NCBI GenBank assembly: GCA_029779375.1
Contig: JAKPAR010000231.1
Span: forward strand, 1-21,537
Reading direction: 5' to 3'
DNA length: 21,537 nucleotides
Origin: Bacillota bacterium
Lineage (GTDB): Bacteria > Bacillota > Clostridia > Tissierellales > Sporanaerobacteraceae
Below, in pieces: positions 435 through 9,595 of this stretch. The translations under genes were made by a program, and so were the position numbers. The notes below the pieces were generated by a model, which was not told the origin of the DNA, did no database searches, and saw nothing but the letters and a program-made list of their open reading frames with translations. Numbering within the stretch: the first letter of the stretch is position 1; each line of letters opens with the position of its first letter.

Positions 435-1426
435 ATGAGCAAATTAAAGGAAAATTTTAAAAAATCTTTTTTTATCGTGAACAAAATATATTTATATATA
501 ATATTTATTTTACTTTCCTTTGTAGATTTTACTTTAGCATTTTATTATTTCATTATTTCTATAATAATATTTCTTGGGAAATTGCTGACATCTAAACTTC
601 CTCTAGAACCAAAAAAGAATTTTAATTATGAAACCTATTCTTACAAAAAATCAAATGAAAAAGATTTAAAAATGGATATATGGTATCCAAATAGCCCTCC
701 CCAAAAATCATATCCATTAGTTTTCTTTTGTCATGGTGGTGGCTGGATATCAGGTTTTAGAAATCAAAAAAATAATGTTTCATGGTGCAAGTATTTAGCT
801 TCAAAGGGTTTTTGCGCGTGTAGTATAGATTATAGATATGGAATAAAAAATAGTATGGATGATATATTATCTGATTATACTGATGCATTAAATTATATAA
901 AGAAAAATAGTGAAAAACTGAATATAGATAAAAATAATATTGTGCTTATGGGATTATCTGCAGGTGGACATCTTTCCCTATTGTATTCAACTTATAATTC
1001 TTTTATTAAGGATGACAAAAAATGGAAGGTATAAAAGGAGTAGTTGCTTACTATGCTCCATCTGATTTAAATGATATATTTATTACGGAAAATAAGTCTT
1101 TATTTGCTAGATTCTCCGCTAAAAAAACTCTAAAAGCTAATCCCTTGGAGAAAAAAGAAATCTATGATTATTATTCTCCAATAAACTGGATAAGCGAAAA
1201 CATGGTTCCATGTCTAGTTGTACATGGAAAACAAGATACTACTGTACCTTTTTATTCATCAGTAAAATTAATAAAAGAACTAAAAACTCACAATGTAAAA
1301 TGTGAATTTTTAGTTCATAGAAATGGTGGACATTCTTTTGACACTAGATTAAATGATTTGGCAACTGTAAATATACTAGAAAAAACCGCTAGATTTATAA
1401 AAAAAGCTTTTGCTATTCATCTATGA
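435..1426 (+). pseudogene. Alpha/beta-hydrolase (esterase/lipase-like), split by a frameshift
   Basis: Two adjoining frames make one complete alpha/beta-hydrolase of about 330 residues. The first (435-1034) has a good ribosome binding site (AGGAG), a hydrophobic N-terminal segment at about residues 15-50 that should anchor it in the membrane, the oxyanion motif HGGGW and the nucleophile elbow GLSAGGH. The second (from about 1017 to 1426) has the acid in HGKQDTTVP and the catalytic His in RNGGHSFD. The frames join at an A6 run (1017-1022). One extra A would read through as DDKKMEGIKG, so a single-base loss is the simplest explanation: a real pseudogene or a sequencing error. Without the shift the product stops at residue 199 and lacks the acid and His. 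The fold resembles the carboxylesterase/BD-FAE group; the substrate is unknown. The 3' end overlaps the convergent lipoprotein gene. Confidence 0.85.
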
Positions 1427-2912
1427 TAGAAACCATATTCTTTAAGAATTCTTCTTCCCAAATATAAATATATTTTCCTGTTGCCCATTCATTCATAACT
1501 ACTTTTTCACCGCTATTGAGTTTTATCTTCTTTATTGGCTCTTGGGACAATTCACCATTCTCAATAGCATATACCATCAAACTATTATGAGTCAATACTA
1601 CTGCTATATCTCCATTGGGTGATGTATAAACATCTGTTGCTTGTGGAACTCTCATCTTGACCGCATTCCACGATATAGCCAATTCATCATAATTAACCAA
1701 TTCTTTTGGAGTTATAGTCTTTATATTAAAATCCACATAGGATTTTTCATTTTCTTCATTTAAATTAATTCTTCCTTTCATAACCCAATGTCCATTTCTC
1801 CTGACAATTCCAAAATTTTCTTCTGTTGGTTTCAAATCTATATATTTGTTTTGAAATTTAGAATCTGTAGAAAAATACCTTGTTGCCCCTTCATAGAAAG
1901 CATTTTTACCACTTTCTCCTGCGATATCTGATATTTTTATTGGATTTGCATTTTTTATATTGTCTATAGGAAGTACCTGTAAAGTTGATTTTGCTCTGTT
2001 TTGTCCTTCAGTTATTTCTACAACCATATAATTATTACCAACATAATTGATTTGCTTTTTTGTATTGTAATTATCTTCATAAGGTATTTCTTCAAATCCC
2101 ATTTCATCTGACTTCTTATTTGCTGGATATGCATATATAATATCTTTTATATTTTCTTCTATAGATATTCTATCCACTCCAATTTTCCAAAACCCTGATT
2201 TTCTAGGAACAAATAAGTTTTCTGTTTCATATATTTTATCTACAGTCTTGTTTTTACTACAAATCCAAATAGTCCTATATTTATATTCACCTTCTTCATT
2301 TTGAGATTCTCCTTCTTCATAATATCTTAGTCCTAATATAATACCTGATCTCAATATTTCATCTTCTTTAGTACTTAAGGCTTTAGTTTTTCCTGCTATT
2401 TTTTCTATATAGCTATTTATCTCTTTATCATCTAATTCGTCTGATATTTTAGTTAAATGGAAAAATACACCATCAATATTTACTATCATTTCATCATCAG
2501 TTTCCCTTATAAATTCATAGTAAAATTGTTCTTCACTAGACATAGATATTACTTGCATTTTCTTATTTCTAATGCCTAAAAAATCTGGATTTACTTTATA
2601 CTGATACAATAAATAATCTAAAGAATTTACATTTTTCAATTTATATGAAGGACTTAAATATATATCATCTCCTATGACTACAACTTTCTTATGAAAAAGC
2701 GCTTTTTTATCTATTATTTTATTTGCCTCTTCGTCAGAAAGACCTTTTGAACTAGCCCTTTTATATTTATCTATTTTCCATTGTCCAGATATAGGAGGAA
2801 TATTGTTGTTTGGAGATATAATTTTTTCATTAGTGTCAATATCTTTAAAACCACAAGATGTGAGAATTAGAATTAAAACAATTAGTACAGCAATTAAATT
2901 TAATTTTCTCAT
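1413..2912 (-). CDS. Lipoprotein encoded with a two-component system
   Basis: The 499-residue product begins with a short basic end, a hydrophobic stretch and a lipobox (LTSC, Cys20), so it should be lipid-anchored on the outer face of the membrane. The rest is hydrophilic, with no further membrane segment. The C-terminal 100 residues contain short strand-rich units (DVYTSPNGDIAVVL, KYIYIWEE) that recall a beta-propeller blade, but I recognise no family. The start ATG overlaps the histidine kinase stop codon (ATGA, 2909-2912), so translation is probably coupled and the protein is likely made in proportion to the kinase. By analogy with other kinase-linked exported proteins it may modulate the kinase or be a co-regulated envelope component; this is inference from position only. 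No terminator is visible after it, and its last 14 bases overlap the convergent hydrolase. Confidence 0.85.
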   Translation of the reverse strand: MRKLNLIAVLIVLILILTSCGFKDIDTNEKIISPNNNIPPISGQWKIDKYKRASSKGLSDEEANKIIDKKALFHKKVVVIGDDIYLSPSYKLKNVNSLDYLLYQYKVNPDFLGIRNKKMQVISMSSEEQFYYEFIRETDDEMIVNIDGVFFHLTKISDELDDKEINSYIEKIAGKTKALSTKEDEILRSGIILGLRYYEEGESQNEEGEYKYRTIWICSKNKTVDKIYETENLFVPRKSGFWKIGVDRISIEENIKDIIYAYPANKKSDEMGFEEIPYEDNYNTKKQINYVGNNYMVVEITEGQNRAKSTLQVLPIDNIKNANPIKISDIAGESGKNAFYEGATRYFSTDSKFQNKYIDLKPTEENFGIVRRNGHWVMKGRINLNEENEKSYVDFNIKTITPKELVNYDELAISWNAVKMRVPQATDVYTSPNGDIAVVLTHNSLMVYAIENGELSQEPIKKIKLNSGEKVVMNEWATGKYIYIWEEEFLKNMVSIIDE

Positions 2913-4306
2913 ATTACTTCCTCCCCAACAGGTAAAAATACAGATACCTTTGTTCCTACATCTACTTCACTTTCTATTTTTATATATCCTCCATGCAATT
3001 TAACTATTTCATCACTTATTGATAAACCCAATCCACTATGGGATTTGGCATTTTTACCCTTGTAAAATTTCTCCATTACATAAGGTAAATCTTCTTTGGG
3101 AATACCACAGCCATTGTCCTCTACACAAATCAATATCATATTATCTTTACTTTTCCCAGAGAAAATTATTTTCCCTCCTTCAGGAGTAAATTTAAGTGAA
3201 TTGTCTATTAAATTTATAAATACTTGCTTTATCCTATTTTCATCTCCAATAATATGAGGTAATTCTTCATTTATATGCAATTCAATATTTATATCTTTTA
3301 AACTTGCTCTAGGAGTAAGCTGTTTAGTTATTTGACTCATTATTTTCCCTATATCTATTTCTTCTTTGTTTAGCTTTATTCTGCCAGAAACAAATCTTGA
3401 AAAATCCAACAATTCTTCAACCATAGAAGTAAGTCTGTCGCTTTCCTTTTCAATAATATCTAATCCATCTTTTATCAATGGATTATCTAACTCTTCTGAT
3501 TTCAAAGTTATGGCCCAACCTTTAATTGAAGTCAAAGGTGTTCTAAGTTCGTGAGATATAGAAGATATAAAATCATTTTTTAATTCTTCTTTTTTTATGA
3601 GCTCTTCTGCCATGAAATTCAAAGTATCTGAAAGTTTTCCTATTTCATCGTCAAATTTTTTCTCGCTTCTTACCTTTAATTGTCCACTAGCCATCTTTTG
3701 AGCTACATATGTCACTTCTTTTAGAGGCCTAACAATAGTATTTGCCAAAAAAACACTCACAAGTCCAGAAATAAATATAACTATAACCCCAATCCAAATA
3801 AAAATTATAGCTATGCTTTTAATAGTTCTGTTAGTTTCTCTAAGAGAAGTTATGAACCGTATGATACCTATTATCTTTCCTTCCGACATAAGTGGATATG
3901 ATACAGCCATTACGGGAGAAGTGTCATAATCTACATTCCCAATCCAAGTTCCCTTTTCTCCTTTTAAAGACTTTGCAACGTCATCTGACATTACAACATT
4001 TGGAAAAGACACTCCAATGGAATCCATAAGAATATTCCCTTTAAGATCTAATATCTGTACTTCTGCATCCGTTTGTTGCCAAAAAACATCTACATCATCA
4101 ATGATTAAATCCTCTATTGAAGTCGAAGAAAAATATCTGGAATAAAAATCAGAAGAAAACATGATTTGATTAGACAAAAGTGCTTCTACACTTTCATAAT
4201 AATAATGCTTAACCGCATTTATCAAAAATATCTCCAATATAACAACAGTAATAAAAATTACGAGCATAAAATTTCCTACAAGTCTGGTTCTAATACTCTT
4301 TTTCAT
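2909..4306 (-). CDS. Membrane sensor histidine kinase
   Basis: A 465-residue class I sensor kinase. Transmembrane helix 1 lies at about residues 12-32 and helix 2 at about 164-188, enclosing an extracytoplasmic domain of about 130 residues. That domain has a PAS/Cache-like pattern (VQILDLKGNILMDS, then VSYPLMSEGKIIGIIRF). A HAMP linker follows (about 189-241). The HisKA domain has the phospho-acceptor His252 in SHELRTP. The ATPase domain has the N box (N365, N369), the G1 box DNGCGIP (397-403) and the G2 box GLGLS (425-429), so all catalytic elements are present. The start has a good ribosome binding site (AGAGG) and lies 6 bases after the response regulator stop; the stop overlaps the lipoprotein start. 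The partner is almost certainly the adjacent OmpR-type regulator. The signal is unknown; the genes around it suggest an envelope cue. Confidence 0.96.
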   Translation of the reverse strand: MKKSIRTRLVGNFMLVIFITVVILEIFLINAVKHYYYESVEALLSNQIMFSSDFYSRYFSSTSIEDLIIDDVDVFWQQTDAEVQILDLKGNILMDSIGVSFPNVVMSDDVAKSLKGEKGTWIGNVDYDTSPVMAVSYPLMSEGKIIGIIRFITSLRETNRTIKSIAIIFIWIGVIVIFISGLVSVFLANTIVRPLKEVTYVAQKMASGQLKVRSEKKFDDEIGKLSDTLNFMAEELIKKEELKNDFISSISHELRTPLTSIKGWAITLKSEELDNPLIKDGLDIIEKESDRLTSMVEELLDFSRFVSGRIKLNKEEIDIGKIMSQITKQLTPRASLKDINIELHINEELPHIIGDENRIKQVFINLIDNSLKFTPEGGKIIFSGKSKDNMILICVEDNGCGIPKEDLPYVMEKFYKGKNAKSHSGLGLSISDEIVKLHGGYIKIESEVDVGTKVSVFLPVGEEVI

Positions 4307-4312
4307 AATCCT

Positions 4313-5026
4313 CTATTCCTCATCCTCCCTATTTCTCCATCTATATCCAATTCCCCAAACAGTCTCAACATATTGAGGATCACTAGGGTTGTCTTCTATT
4401 TTGGCCCTCAATCTTCTAATATTCACATCAACTATTTTGGAATCTCCAAAAAAATCATATCCCCATACCCAATTGAGTATTTCATCACGTTTAAATGCCT
4501 TCCCGGGATTTTCCATGAAAATTTTTATAATAGAGTATTCTGTAGGTGTCAATTCAATTTCTTTCTCATTTTTATAAAATATTCTTGAATATGTGTCTAT
4601 TTTAAACGGTCCATCTACTATGAATTCTTCATCATTAGTTGCACTTGCCAAATCTATTCTTCTAATTAAAGATTTGACTCTCAATACCAACTCAGTGGGA
4701 TTAAAAGGCTTCACCATATAGTCATCTGTTCCATATTCTAGCCCTGTGATTTTATCTATGTCTTGACTTTTAGCAGTTAGCATTATTATACCTATAGTGG
4801 GAAATTCTTTTCTAAGTACTTTGCATACTTCATATCCATCTATCCCTGGCAACATTATATCTAGAACTACTACATCTATTTCTTCATTTCTGGCATTTGC
4901 TATCCCTTCTTCTCCAGTAGGAGCCTCTATGACATAATATCCTTGCCTCTCTAAATTTATTTTTATAAATTTTCTTATAGAATCTTCGTCTTCAACAACT
5001 AATATAGTGTGCTTTTTTTCTTCCAT
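4313..5026 (-). CDS. OmpR/PhoB-family response regulator
   Basis: A 237-residue response regulator. The receiver domain (residues about 6-120) has the acidic pair E12/D13, phospho-acceptor Asp56 (LDIMLPGIDG), Thr84 (MLTAK) and Lys106 (VKPF). The C-terminal half is a winged-helix DNA-binding domain ending in VDVNIRRLRAKIEDNP and VETVWGIGYRW, typical of the OmpR/PhoB/WalR class. I chose the ATG at 5026 because a strong AGAGGTGA lies 7 bases upstream; the 20 extra residues possible from further upstream cover this ribosome binding site and would not be translated. It is the first gene of an operon with the kinase and lipoprotein. Its promoter carries a TGTAAT-N5-TGTAAC direct repeat of the sort bound by WalR and PhoP, so it probably controls its own expression. 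Whether it is orthologous to WalR or PhoP cannot be settled from the sequence alone. Confidence 0.96.
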   Translation of the reverse strand: MEEKKHTILVVEDEDSIRKFIKINLERQGYYVIEAPTGEEGIANARNEEIDVVVLDIMLPGIDGYEVCKVLRKEFPTIGIIMLTAKSQDIDKITGLEYGTDDYMVKPFNPTELVLRVKSLIRRIDLASATNDEEFIVDGPFKIDTYSRIFYKNEKEIELTPTEYSIIKIFMENPGKAFKRDEILNWVWGYDFFGDSKIVDVNIRRLRAKIEDNPSDPQYVETVWGIGYRWRNREDEE

Positions 5027-5062: not shown

Positions 5063-5105
5063 ATTATACCATTTATATCTCTTCATTAGTTACAAATTTA
5101 TTACA
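5063..5105 (-). promoter_or_regulatory. Promoter with tandem TGTAAY direct repeat upstream of the response regulator
   Basis: Read on the minus strand: TGTAAT (5105-5100), five bases, TGTAAC (5094-5089), twenty bases, then TATAAT (5068-5063), about 37 bases before the response regulator start. No good -35 hexamer sits 16-18 bases before the -10, which is usual for activated promoters. The repeat matches the TGTWAH-N5-TGTWAH pattern known for WalR, which is close to the PhoP box. The same arrangement occurs before the YcdB/SLH gene. That the neighbouring regulator binds here is inference. Confidence 0.7.
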
Positions 5106-5134
5106 AAAGAAAAAAGAAGGCTAATTTCACCTTC
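5106..5134 (-). terminator. Rho-independent terminator after the YcdB/SLH gene
   Basis: On the minus strand GAAGG and CCTTC (5134-5130 and 5120-5116) form a stem, extended by a T-G wobble pair, with a 7-base loop. It is followed by a T run broken by one C (5115-5106). The stem is short, so strength may be moderate. It separates the YcdB/SLH gene from the response regulator operon, whose operator begins at the next base. Confidence 0.75.
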
Positions 5135-5150
5135 CCTTCTCCTATATATA

Positions 5151-7250
5151 TTAATTGCTGAACAAGAAATTGTAAATTAAATTTGCTCCATCTTCTCTTT
5201 TGAGTTCTGCCTTTGGCCTTAGATATCCATTATTTCCTTCTACAATTTTTAGTCCATAGGCAATTGATACATATCCTTTTAGTTCTGGATTTATATCCTT
5301 TGTATCTTTAAATAAATCTTTATATATGCTATTCAAATCTGCAACCTTGTCATATTTCAATGCTCTAATTATATACTTTATAGCCTCTTCTTTAGTAATT
5401 ATCTTTTTTGGTGCCTTTTCATCATCCTTTACAATACCTGTATTCATCAAGTAGGAATACAACTTTTCATCATTATTTAAAATATCTGAACCTAAATAGG
5501 AATTGTTGGCTTTTGCAAGTAAAAATAAGAAATCTCTTTGAGTCAATTTTTCACTAGGTTTAAATTCATCTCCAGGAAATCCAATCCCATATTGAGTTAA
5601 AATATTTATTTTATCCTTTGCATAACTTTTATCTATATCTTTATAGCTAATCTTTTCTCTTTTCACATATGGCATTCCTTGATAATCTAAAATTTCCCCT
5701 GTATTTGCATCTATATCATTTGGTCTATCTTTCTTTAAAGCATAAACCAATATAGCTTCTAATTTCTTGTTATCTATTTTGTCATATCTACTTGGCACTG
5801 TATATCTAACTTCCATTCCTATTTTATCAAACAATATATCATAAGCTTCATCTATAGATATAACTTTGTCTTTTGATGGGAGTTTCCCATTGTACCAATC
5901 TATCTCATATTCAATAATCTTTCCTTCTGTCAAATCTACAGAAACCCTTATGGCATCATCTAATACATAAGCACCATCTTCTATTCTCATGAAATTTAAA
6001 TATACTATCTTTTGAGGGTCTCCCTCAACTCTACTAGAATCAGAAATTGACTCTATAAATTCAATATTATTTACCTTTTCAGGATTTGTTTTAGCTATAA
6101 AATTCTTTGCAATATCTAAAGCCTGTTTTTCACTATATTTAATTTCTTTATTTGAATTTACATCAGCCCATCTATAAAAAGAAATAAGCTCTTTACTTTT
6201 TGCATTTATAGCTACATTTGAATACTTTTCTACACCATTTACATTTTTCACAAAACCTAAATACCATTTATATTCTCCCTTGTTCTTCCAGTTTTTGTAT
6301 AAATTTGCCGACTCCAATTTATAATCTTTATCTATCTCTAAATACTTTCTACCAAGTTTTTCTGCTTCTTCCTCTGATATAAGTCCAGACACGCTTTCCA
6401 CAGCCTTTTGTTCATCTGGACTCAAATCTTCAGCATTTTCTTCTCCTTTAGCTCCCATATGCATATCCATGCCCTCATAGTATGGACCATAATAGTCAAT
6501 TTGAACAACTTCTCCATTCTTTGCATCTATACCTACATCATTTCTAAGAGATGCATAAGTTAAATATAATCTAGGTTCTGTTTCCATGTAAGAAGTCTTA
6601 TAAATTAATTTCAATCCAATCTTTTCTTTGTATAGTTCTTGAGCTTTCTCGTTTGAAATTACATCTTTTGCTTCAGAAAATACTATATCTTTATCCCAAT
6701 TTGTATAATAATCTCTTACCTCACCAGTTATATTGTCCACAGTTATATTGATATTGTTCTCACTATAAGGTATTCCATTTACAGTTCTTGTAAAGAAATA
6801 ATTGTATGAATCTGAATAAATATCCAATTGTTCATCTCTATCAACATATTCCATATTCTTTGCAATATCTGGGCTTACTTTCCCAATAAAATCTTTTGCA
6901 ATCTTTAATCCCTGATCTTTTGATACCTTTGGCAATTTAGGTCTATTTTCTCCATAATATGGTTTATATTTTGAATAACTTAAAATTTCTCCATCTACTG
7001 TTACGGAAACATTTATACTGCCAAGCTTTTCCTTGCTGTCTGACCAATTTAAATGAAAAGCTGTTTTCCCGTCATAAGAGCTTACATCAGAACTAAACTT
7101 GTCATACTCTTTTCCAATATTGAACAATTCTTTACTCTTTGTAATAGCTTCTTTCAACTGTTTATCGAAATTTTGTTGTGCAAAGGAACCTATTGGAATC
7201 AATGTCAAAATCATAACAATTGCTAACACTGCTGAAACTCTCTTCTTCAT
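5151..7250 (-). CDS. Secreted protein with two YcdB-like modules and three SLH motifs
   Basis: The start at 7250 is fixed by a strong AGGGGG 9 bases upstream; a longer frame to 7346 would cover that site. The 699-residue product has a signal peptide ending near SFA (residue 24). Residues about 110-250 and 375-525 are two copies of a YcdB/YcdC (PepSY-like) module: compare LKIAKDFIGKVSPD with LDIAKNFIAKTNPE, and ISNEKAQELYKEKIGLKLIY with ISIDEAYDILFDKIGMEVRY. Both end in a D(A/I)(K/N)xGE(V/I) signature. The C-terminal 165 residues hold three SLH-like motifs (about 534-580, 596-633, 643-697), which usually anchor proteins to secondary cell-wall polymers. It is probably a cell-surface protein, perhaps a protease inhibitor or regulator like other PepSY-type domains, but its activity is not known. 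It has its own promoter with a WalR-like box and its own terminator. Confidence 0.92.
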   Translation of the reverse strand: MKKRVSAVLAIVMILTLIPIGSFAQQNFDKQLKEAITKSKELFNIGKEYDKFSSDVSSYDGKTAFHLNWSDSKEKLGSINVSVTVDGEILSYSKYKPYYGENRPKLPKVSKDQGLKIAKDFIGKVSPDIAKNMEYVDRDEQLDIYSDSYNYFFTRTVNGIPYSENNINITVDNITGEVRDYYTNWDKDIVFSEAKDVISNEKAQELYKEKIGLKLIYKTSYMETEPRLYLTYASLRNDVGIDAKNGEVVQIDYYGPYYEGMDMHMGAKGEENAEDLSPDEQKAVESVSGLISEEEAEKLGRKYLEIDKDYKLESANLYKNWKNKGEYKWYLGFVKNVNGVEKYSNVAINAKSKELISFYRWADVNSNKEIKYSEKQALDIAKNFIAKTNPEKVNNIEFIESISDSSRVEGDPQKIVYLNFMRIEDGAYVLDDAIRVSVDLTEGKIIEYEIDWYNGKLPSKDKVISIDEAYDILFDKIGMEVRYTVPSRYDKIDNKKLEAILVYALKKDRPNDIDANTGEILDYQGMPYVKREKISYKDIDKSYAKDKINILTQYGIGFPGDEFKPSEKLTQRDFLFLLAKANNSYLGSDILNNDEKLYSYLMNTGIVKDDEKAPKKIITKEEAIKYIIRALKYDKVADLNSIYKDLFKDTKDINPELKGYVSIAYGLKIVEGNNGYLRPKAELKREDGANLIYNFLFSN

Positions 7251-7334
7251 AACAAAGCCCCCTCGTTTTAAAATTTTGAATTTTTTAAAAAAATAATCAA
7301 GTATACCACTTTTAGAATATTTCTCTATGTTTAT

Positions 7335-7378
7335 ATTATACTTCATGTAGAGGAAATATTAGTTACAAATTAGTTACA
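7335..7378 (-). promoter_or_regulatory. Promoter with tandem TGTAAC direct repeat upstream of the YcdB/SLH gene
   Basis: On the minus strand: TGTAAC (7378-7373), TAATT, TGTAAC (7367-7362), twenty-one bases, then TATAAT (7340-7335). This leaves a leader of about 80 bases before the start at 7250. The two hexamers are identical and 11 bases apart, one helical turn, as in WalR and PhoP boxes. There is no clear -35 at the usual distance, which suggests activation. The geometry matches the promoter of the downstream response regulator operon to within one base. Confidence 0.72.
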
Positions 7379-7386
7379 TTGAAAGC

Positions 7387-7412
7387 AAAAAAATAAGCCC
7401 TAAGGCTTATTT
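7387..7412 (-). terminator. Rho-independent terminator after the Gly/Tyr-tailed protein
   Basis: On the minus strand AAATAAGCC (7412-7404) pairs with GGCTTATTT (7399-7391) around a 4-base loop. The T run continues past the 3' arm, giving seven T in all (7393-7387), and the stem begins 4 bases after the stop codon. It separates this gene from the YcdB/SLH promoter, which starts 9 bases further on. Confidence 0.88.
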
Positions 7413-7416
7413 CATA

Positions 7417-7803
7417 TTAGTCCCAAGGTTCATATCCATACCCTGGACCATATCCGTACCCTGAACCATATCCATAGTAGTTGTAGGGATACCTCCTTCT
7501 AAGTAGTTCTGATATAAGTATGATGCTTATTATGTCTCTTACAATTCTTCCCCTGCCATAATAAGGTCGTTGCATAGCTTTGTACCTAGAATAGCGTTGT
7601 CGTCTTTCCATGGGATCTTCACCTATTTCTGGACACTCAGCTAACATTTGTTCATAGACTTCATCTACCATCTTGTCTACCTCATCTTCCGAAACATTTC
7701 CGGCAACTGATAGATTATCTACATTTTTGCTGATTGTACTCATTACTTTTGGATATATACGATAATATAGTTCTGGATATGAAATATCAAAGCTATAATC
7801 CAT
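7417..7803 (-). CDS. Small hypothetical protein with a Gly/Tyr-rich tail
   Basis: A 128-residue protein I cannot assign. The first 75 residues are acidic and mostly helical (VSEDEVDKMVDEVYEQML); a basic region follows (RRQRYSRYKAMQRPYYGRGR), then a short hydrophobic patch (IVRDIISIILISELL) and a tail made of repeated GYG/YGY units (about residues 107-128) ending in EPWD. Gly/Tyr-rich tails of this kind occur in spore-coat and other surface or assembly proteins of Firmicutes, but that comparison is weak. The start is well supported by GGGGAGG 7 bases upstream, although that site lies in the arm of a possible hairpin. It lies 70 bases after the ABC exporter on the same strand, with no obvious promoter in between, so it may be co-transcribed. 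A strong terminator follows. Confidence 0.8.
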   Translation of the reverse strand: MDYSFDISYPELYYRIYPKVMSTISKNVDNLSVAGNVSEDEVDKMVDEVYEQMLAECPEIGEDPMERRQRYSRYKAMQRPYYGRGRIVRDIISIILISELLRRRYPYNYYGYGSGYGYGPGYGYEPWD

Positions 7804-7873: not shown

Positions 7874-9595
7874 CTATAATTCTTTAAATTGTGACTTATA
7901 AAGATTTGCATATACTCCTTTCTTTTCAAGAAGTTCCTCATGTTTTCCTTTTTCTTCTATCCCTTTATTGGTCAATACAACTATTTCATCAGCATTTTTT
8001 ATAGTAGATAACCTATGAGCTATAACTAAAACAGTCCTACCATGAGAAAGTTCTTCTAAAGATTTTTGAATAGCTATTTCAGTTTCATTGTCTAAAGCAG
8101 AAGTTGCTTCATCAAGAATTAATATAGGAGGATTTTTAAGAAATAATCTGGCAATAGATATCCTCTGTTTTTGTCCTCCTGAAAGCATAACACCCTTTTC
8201 TCCAATATATGTGTCATACCCATTTGGAAGAGTCATTATGAAATCATGAATACTGGCCTTTTTAGCTGCTTCAACTATTTCTTCATCACTGGCTTCTGGA
8301 TTTCCATATAATATATTGTCTTTTATAGTTCCTGTAAACAAAAATACATCTTGCTGTACCAATCCTATATTTTGTCTTAATGATCTTAATTTTATATCCC
8401 TAATGTCTACTCCATCAATAAGTATTTGTCCTTCATCTATTTCATAAAATCTTGGTATCAAATGACATAGAGTAGTTTTCCCTGCACCTGATGGGCCAAC
8501 TATGGCAACAGTTTTGCCTTGTTTTATATCTAAATTTATACCTGAAAAAACTGTCTTTTTTCCATTGCTATAACTAAAAGATACATCTTTAAATTCAATT
8601 TCTCCCTTTACATCTTTAAGCTCTATAGCATCTTCTTTATCTTTAATATCTGGTTCAATATTCATTATTTCTATAAATCTTTCAAAACCTGTCATACCAT
8701 CTTGATATTGTTGAGCAAATTCCGTTAGCCTTCTAATAGGCTGTAAAAAGTAATTTACAAACAACAAATATGCAACCAATTCTCCATAGTCAATATATTT
8801 CTTATATACAAATATTCCTCCAAGGCTTAGTACAATTAAATTTAGCATATTAGACATAAAGTTTATTCCTGACATAAACTCAGCCATTACCTTATAGGAA
8901 GCTTCTCTAGCCTCTCTAAATTCCATATTGTTCTCAGCAAACTTTTCTATCTCATAATCTTCATTTGTAAAAGATTTAGCAACACGAATACCAGAAATAC
9001 TATTTTCAAGTTGAGAATTTACATTGGCTATTCGTTTTCTAACTTGTCTAAAAGACTCAGACATTTTATTTCTCTTAGAAATAGCAAACCATATCATCAG
9101 TGGAACAAAGGCAAATATAATTAAAGTAAGTCTCCACTCAATTCTCAAAAGTATAATAAAAGATCCTATTAGCATGACTAGTGATATAAATAAGTCTTCA
9201 GGACCATGATGAGCAAGTTCTGTTATTTCCCTCAAATCATTAACTATTCTTGACATTATATGTCCAGTTTTGTTGTTGTCAAAATAAGTAAAAGATAAAG
9301 TCTGTAAATGAGCAAATACATCTTTTCTCATATCATGTTCTATTCTAACTCCCACAACATGACCATAATAGTTTACAATGTATTGACTTATGTATCTCAA
9401 TACAAACAGTATAGCCAAATAAATGGTCCATTTGTATAGTAGATCTATATTCCCATTTGGAATATAGTCATTTATGAAATTTTTCGTCACTACAGGGAAT
9501 ACCAAATCTAAAACAGATATGAAAAAAGCACATACCATATCTAATATAAACAACTTCATATGTGGTTTATAATAAGATGTAAATTTTTTAAGCAA
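7874..9595 (-). CDS. ABC exporter, fused membrane and ATPase domains
   Basis: A 573-residue half-transporter that should work as a dimer (MsbA/LmrA/BmrA type). Residues 1-310 are the six-helix export domain, with the usual coupling-helix sequence SFTYFDNNKTGHIMSRIVND. The ATPase domain has Walker A GPSGAGKTT (367-375), Q-loop Q414/Q415, signature LSGGQ (471-475), Walker B ILILDE (491-496) and H-loop His527, all intact. The start is TTG at 9595, supported by AAGGGGG with 8 bases of spacing; the next Met (residue 13) has no comparable site. A good promoter lies about 40 bases upstream. It is divergent from an MFS transporter, so the pair may share control. The substrate cannot be told from the sequence; lipids, peptides or drugs are typical of the family. 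Confidence 0.95.
   Translation of the reverse strand: MLKKFTSYYKPHMKLFILDMVCAFFISVLDLVFPVVTKNFINDYIPNGNIDLLYKWTIYLAILFVLRYISQYIVNYYGHVVGVRIEHDMRKDVFAHLQTLSFTYFDNNKTGHIMSRIVNDLREITELAHHGPEDLFISLVMLIGSFIILLRIEWRLTLIIFAFVPLMIWFAISKRNKMSESFRQVRKRIANVNSQLENSISGIRVAKSFTNEDYEIEKFAENNMEFREAREASYKVMAEFMSGINFMSNMLNLIVLSLGGIFVYKKYIDYGELVAYLLFVNYFLQPIRRLTEFAQQYQDGMTGFERFIEIMNIEPDIKDKEDAIELKDVKGEIEFKDVSFSYSNGKKTVFSGINLDIKQGKTVAIVGPSGAGKTTLCHLIPRFYEIDEGQILIDGVDIRDIKLRSLRQNIGLVQQDVFLFTGTIKDNILYGNPEASDEEIVEAAKKASIHDFIMTLPNGYDTYIGEKGVMLSGGQKQRISIARLFLKNPPILILDEATSALDNETEIAIQKSLEELSHGRTVLVIAHRLSTIKNADEIVVLTNKGIEEKGKHEELLEKKGVYANLYKSQFKEL

Follow-up and report, generated by a model that had tools for sequence, protein, structure and literature searches.

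Tandem TGTAAY boxes at -10-only promoters as putative sites of an adjacent, non-canonical Wal-type response regulator

Our analysis of the window (the whole stretch of 21,537 nucleotides under study) suggests that its response regulator probably belongs to a second, non-canonical Wal-type system, which would activate its own operon and a surface-protein regulon through tandem boxes. The two boxes in the window, one upstream of the regulator operon and the other upstream of a ycdB-like gene (Table 1), are very probably docking sites of the adjacent regulator. We computed the boxes, their spacing from the -10 element, their conservation, their co-occurrence with the regulator and the types of genes that follow them; judged from these sequence comparisons, the putative regulon is larger than two promoters and the regulator is best classed as a non-canonical WalR of the Clostridioides type.

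Tandem boxes at two promoters of the window

Direct reading and pattern matching place both boxes, and the TATAAT hexamers that follow them, where the original prediction had put them on the minus strand. Both match the WalR-type consensus TGTWAH-N5-TGTWAH to which they had been likened, a consensus ascribed to WalR in excerpts of two reports (PMC4168254, PMC9210968), and the window contains exactly two matches to this pattern, so that the claim of no third tandem copy stands. The proposed lack of a proper -35 element is also borne out: the best match found by eye at either promoter is about 2/6, at 16–18 nt from the -10, and neither promoter is among the matches listed in a sigma-70 scan of the window.

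The start codon of the regulator lies at 5026, 36 nt past its -10; ycdB starts at 7250, as read from the sequence and from ortholog comparison. Longer open reading frame starts overlap the promoters and are unlikely. As a terminator-like hairpin directly precedes each box, ycdB is probably transcribed separately from the regulator operon; the hairpin at the regulator promoter (-11.7 kcal/mol) has a z of only -2.16, with 7 of 200 shuffles equal or better. Setting the -10 element at positions -12 to -7 puts the box at about -34 to -50, with its centre near -41, the position of class II activators among OmpR-family proteins; the location of the box fits a class II activator promoter.

Table 1. 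Features of the window and their positions
Feature	Coordinates	Strand	Remarks
Lipoprotein, gene 3 of regulator operon	1413..2912	-	Cys19 invariant in 23 aligned homologs
Sensor histidine kinase, HAMP-HisKA-HATPase	2909..4306	-	Pfam
OmpR/PhoB-family response regulator, Clostridioides-type WalR clade	4313..5026	-	Pfam, tree
-10 TATAAT of regulator operon	5063..5068	-	20 nt 3' of box; without -35
Tandem box TGTAATAAATTTGTAAC (TGTAAT-N5-TGTAAC)	5089..5105	-	Upstream of regulator operon; direct reading and pattern match
Terminator-like hairpin closing ycdB unit	5111..5139	-	Adjoins regulator-operon box on upstream side
ycdB-like surface protein, YcdB/YcdC repeats (DUF4901) and SLH domain	5151..7250	-	Pfam
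-10 TATAAT of ycdB	7335..7340	-	21 nt 3' of box; without -35
Tandem box TGTAACTAATTTGTAAC (TGTAAC-N5-TGTAAC)	7362..7378	-	Upstream of ycdB; direct reading and pattern match
Terminator-like hairpin of gene preceding ycdB	7390..7413	-	Adjoins ycdB box upstream; z -3.41
Small YPELYYRIYPKV protein gene	7417-7803		No Pfam family found
ABC exporter	7874-9595		

The regulator and the distribution of the box

The window regulator carries Response_reg and Trans_reg_C domains (100.7 and 99.6 bits, both above the Pfam gathering score). We considered whether it is the canonical WalR/YycF itself and ruled this out: it scores about 216 bits (216.1–216.7) against the YycF equivalog model NF040534 (cut-off 340 bits), whereas a paralog on contig C45 of the same genome reaches 340.8 bits. 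It also remains below the cut-off of the MtrA equivalog model NF040689 (217 vs. 300 bits). In a maximum-likelihood tree, built without C. difficile's own protein, the window regulator groups with proteins of Tissierella, Clostridium, Tepidibacter and Clostridioides/Paraclostridium (20 rows, support 99/96), several of which are named WalR by their sources, and canonical WalR falls outside this clade; two clade members, P0091 and P0054, likewise stay below the YycF cut-off (214.4 and 205.7 bits). Pfam finds neither PAS (at E 0.001) nor Cache in the window kinase, and the canonical kinase of the same-genus genome G001 carries PAS and Cache_WalK. No Pfam family was found in the lipoprotein encoded by the third gene; its predicted model is beta-rich and weakly propeller-like (a beta-propeller is predicted for WalA), and a lipoprotein-like gene follows the kinase in most of the 34 relatives listed. 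The small YPELYYRIYPKV gene and the ABC exporter adjoin the regulator operon in the window, and one or both also lie beside it in several relatives.

Regulator orthologs are found across the order. We scanned 1.5 kb upstream of 39 orthologous loci (regulator identity at least 58%) for matches to 11–12 of the 12 box positions, and found the box upstream of the regulator operon in 28, compared with none on the opposite strand, two in reversed sequence and one in the kinase region; three of the 11 loci without a box have less than 1 kb of upstream sequence. Among more distant regulators (identity at most 49%) the box is absent from all 35 loci, many of them richer in G+C; since this paralog control comes largely from G+C-richer genomes, the same-locus controls are the ones to be trusted. 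At 53–54% identity one locus in six has the box, and several, inspected by eye, keep a single TGTAAC 21 nt ahead of a -10. The regulator is preceded, in 25 of 34 relatives, by a gene carrying a polysaccharide-deacetylase motif, and where this is so, the box lies about 1 kb further up, before the deacetylase gene. Sixteen of the 28 boxed loci have a further TGTAAY-like half-site at +33, followed 16 nt later by a -10-like hexamer in 12 of these; when 56 sites are taken together, additional TGTAA motifs lie mostly at -11, +22 and +33, i.e. in an 11-bp phase.

The regulator-operon box is identical in G001, and the three closest ycdB orthologs keep 11 of the 12 positions of the ycdB box (G001, 89% identical; G003, 63%; G011, 56%). 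In G011 ycdB lies about 1.2 Mb away from the regulator and the box is still before ycdB; nine other ycdB homologs have no box within 400 nt. The ycdB box has no exact match in G001, but we could rule out that it is not conserved there, as only its first base differs (C for T). Comparison of the intergenic regions thus supports conservation in relatives at both promoters.

What is remarkable is the box at a fixed distance from the -10 element, not the box alone. The bare pattern occurs twice in the window (0.37 expected), a count that 6 of 100 shuffles equalled or exceeded, and its 25 matches in the whole genome, against 25 for the reversed pattern, are at chance level and rule out the bare WalR consensus as a regulon marker in this genome. 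When up to three mismatches were allowed, box plus TATAAT gave 13 matches vs. 7 in the control with N21 and 4 vs. 8 with N20; with exact matches to TGTAAH-N5-TGTAAH-N19-22-TANNAT, the counts were 31 vs. 1 in six family genomes together and 9 vs. 0 in the window's genome. An earlier spacing profile was partly circular, as some of its loci had been picked with a -10; we therefore counted loci picked by the box only, with enough downstream sequence and with no -10 demanded. A -10-like hexamer lies at 20–22 nt after eight of the nine distinct TGTAAY boxes of the window's genome (at 12–14 nt after two, at 28–30 nt after none), and the signal is weaker in relatives, where the counts at 20–22, 12–14 and 28–30 nt are 6, 4 and 2 for 28 boxes. 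The worry attached to the original prediction, that such pairs are frequent at random positions in an AT-rich genome, is thus justified for the bare box and mistaken for the box with its -10; given also the conservation in relatives, we consider it hardly credible that the two boxes arose by chance.

The box also tracks the regulator. In a survey of 150 genomes, in which a match at E 1.6e-79 or better counted as an ortholog (the borderline genome G049, at 49% identity, being placed among those without), the motif TGTAAYNNNTTTGTAAC has 183 sites in the 96 genomes with an ortholog (control 6) and 20 sites in the 54 genomes without (control 9). The latter comprise 27 genomes of family f19, with 6 sites vs. 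9 in the control, and 27 others, still with 14 vs. 0. The motif persists where the ortholog is present but nothing matches the YycF model above 245 bits, with 43 sites vs. 1 in these 17 genomes; five genomes with best matches of 272–280 bits were excluded from this count as ambiguous, and their inclusion gives 46 sites vs. 1 in 22 genomes. The per-genome probability of the co-occurrence (p ~2e-10) overstates independence, given the borderline value at the family level (p 0.053), and families f2, f11, f13 and f18 lack TGTAAYNNNTTTGTAAC sites although the ortholog is present. Because the box tracks the regulator and persists without a recognisable canonical WalR, the central proposal, that the two promoters belong to a regulon of the adjacent regulator, gains support; the window regulator does not account for every such box, since related ones are found in genomes that lack it. 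One sub-type of the box, TGTAACACAACTGTAATGGTA followed by TATAAT after 22 nt, recurs in several genomes, e.g. at L083 and L082, which are secreted SLH-like genes by eye; as it is also present in genomes without the window regulator (e.g. G013, G014, G016), another regulator may use it. In the f19 genomes another promoter element, TGTAATGTTAATGTAATACTA, recurs ahead of TATAAT.

These distributions bear on which protein reads the boxes. That they are sites of canonical WalR (YycF, contig C45), with the window system as one WalR target, seems unlikely to us: the consensus is indeed that of WalR, canonical WalR is present in the genome, and outside f19 the genomes with WalR but without the window regulator show a weak motif excess; yet the motif is kept in the 17 genomes with no YycF match above 245 bits, two of which share the same lipoprotein target, and is not in excess in the f19 genomes, nearly all of which match WalR at E 1e-85 or better. 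The window regulator and canonical WalR have similar recognition helices (VDVNIRR and VDVTVRR, respectively), so that helix sequence alone cannot decide which regulator binds, and both proteins could bind some sites. Many OmpR-family regulators exist per genome, and one of them, such as the PhoP-like protein on contig C346 (47% identical, with the similar helix VDVHIRR), might bind the boxes instead; we regard this as improbable, as the box precedes the window regulator's own operon in most orthologous loci and no other regulator was seen travelling with it.

Candidate targets and proposed mechanism

The window's genome has eight box-plus-10 promoters, including those of the regulator and ycdB. 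Of the other six, three precede lipoprotein genes (one with DUF4349), one a gene for a secreted protein and two genes for enzymes that are apparently cytosolic, signal peptides being judged by eye; the enzymes, which we take to be a TtcA-like ATPase and an acetyltransferase, count against the reading that we prefer. In G001 such promoters also lie upstream of genes for a PdaC/DUF3298 protein, for a subtilase and for a secreted protein, SLH-like by eye (Pfam found nothing in its fragment). Away from the regulator, boxes precede polysaccharide-deacetylase genes in G001 (about 70 kb distant; identity confirmed by Pfam) and in G003 (on another contig); none was seen before a deacetylase gene, as a test for a pgdA-like target, in the window's 89%-complete genome. 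Nine genomes share, by eye, one lipoprotein target; G027 and G073 are among them, both without a YycF match above 245 bits. Of other genomes that lack such a match, G099 has a box ahead of an ftsE-like gene, with ftsX and a PcsB/M23 gene further downstream, and in G099, G126 and G071 genes for CWB2 and 3D-domain proteins have a box before or beside them. Several of the boxes in relatives are oriented away from the adjacent wall gene, and some lie reversed, 47–79 nt upstream of M23/LysM/G5 and peptidoglycan-binding genes; the reversed boxes may be repression sites.

Two further arrangements were observed. A secreted-protein gene shortly downstream of the canonical walRK locus has a TGTAAC-type box in G001, G063 and G051 (L204:2233-2754, L222, L225), a possible link between both Wal-type systems. 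At L209, L212, L226 and L261 the box lies beside a divergent M23/LysM-type gene, and at three of these four loci its other flank is a gene for what we assume to be the YyaC-like spore protease.

We propose the following mechanism, in which binding, its dependence on phosphorylation, activation rather than repression and the envelope signal are inferred: an envelope signal would act on the PAS-less kinase (HAMP-HisKA-HATPase), perhaps tuned by the lipoprotein, and lead to phosphorylation of the regulator; a dimer of the phosphorylated regulator would occupy the tandem TGTAAY-N5-TGTAAC half-sites, one helical turn apart; and polymerase would be recruited to the -10-only promoter, yielding more regulator and more surface protein. 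Predicted targets are the regulator's own operon, ycdB and probably most of the six further promoters, four of which lie upstream of genes encoding exported proteins; genes for peptidoglycan deacetylases and murein hydrolases would also be activated in relatives.

Among the papers listed in the open-access literature, we found none that describes a box of this kind upstream of a non-canonical wal operon. A wider reading, to which we give even chances, is that the WalRK of Clostridioides forms an orthologous group separate from YycF/YycG, that many relatives carry both, that some lineages have lost YycF, with the wall-hydrolase regulon (ftsEX-pcsB and genes for 3D-domain, deacetylase and surface proteins) passing to this group, and that the group, in contrast to the Wal systems described to date, activates its own operon through TGTAAC arrays in 11-bp phase. 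Our comparison suggests that the "WalR" of Clostridioides and that of Bacillus are different lineages reading similar DNA; the opposite phenotypes reported for them, as described in part of one article (PMC9210968), may therefore compare non-orthologs. A hunch drawn from two sites can now be tested as a putative regulon for which the box, its spacing and the genes concerned are specified, and genomes with both systems or only one allow the carrier of the wall-hydrolase regulon to be asked about directly. A self-activating wall regulator, if confirmed, would be predicted to behave like a switch.

Comparison with known Wal-type and related systems

The window system shares the order regulator-kinase-lipoprotein with what we take to be the gene order of MtrAB-LpqB of Actinobacteria, and MtrA is among the closest PDB sequences to the window regulator (2gwr). 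It differs from MtrAB-LpqB in the score of its regulator against the MtrA model and in its lipoprotein, which has no Pfam family.

With canonical WalR/YycF of Bacilli (VicR) the window system shares, according to excerpts of PMC4168254, two TGTWAH half-sites 11 bp apart and cell-wall targets; it departs from it in its YycF-model score and in the lack of PAS in its kinase. The box enriched here is TGTAAY-NNNTT-TGTAAC, whereas that of S. mutans VicR is given in the same excerpts as TGTWAHA-N4-TGTWAHA (PMC4168254).

Another close counterpart is C. difficile WalRK (walA-walR-walK-truA2), with which, judging from portions of its description (PMC9210968), the window system has in common a kinase without PAS, a lipoprotein gene in the operon and an envelope regulon; Clostridioides/Paraclostridium proteins named WalR also share the clade of the window regulator. 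Those portions report that overproduction of C. difficile WalR induced pgdA 16-fold, changed S-layer genes and repressed an NlpC/P60 hydrolase gene, for which two sites are predicted (PMC9210968); the induction of pgdA may have its parallel in the boxed deacetylase genes of the window's relatives. The lipoprotein gene, in contrast, lies downstream of the kinase gene in the window and upstream of the regulator gene in the C. difficile wal operon (PMC9210968, in part). The main departure is the conserved box before the window operon: the C. difficile wal operon is reported, in the portions cited, not to be autoregulated (PMC9210968), and the same is stated in excerpts on S. aureus walRK, in whose promoter no WalR site was identified (PMC4801191). 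A second departure, judged from model scores and the tree, is that two Wal-type regulators coexist in one genome: unlike in the C. difficile comparison, the window's genome also has canonical WalR.
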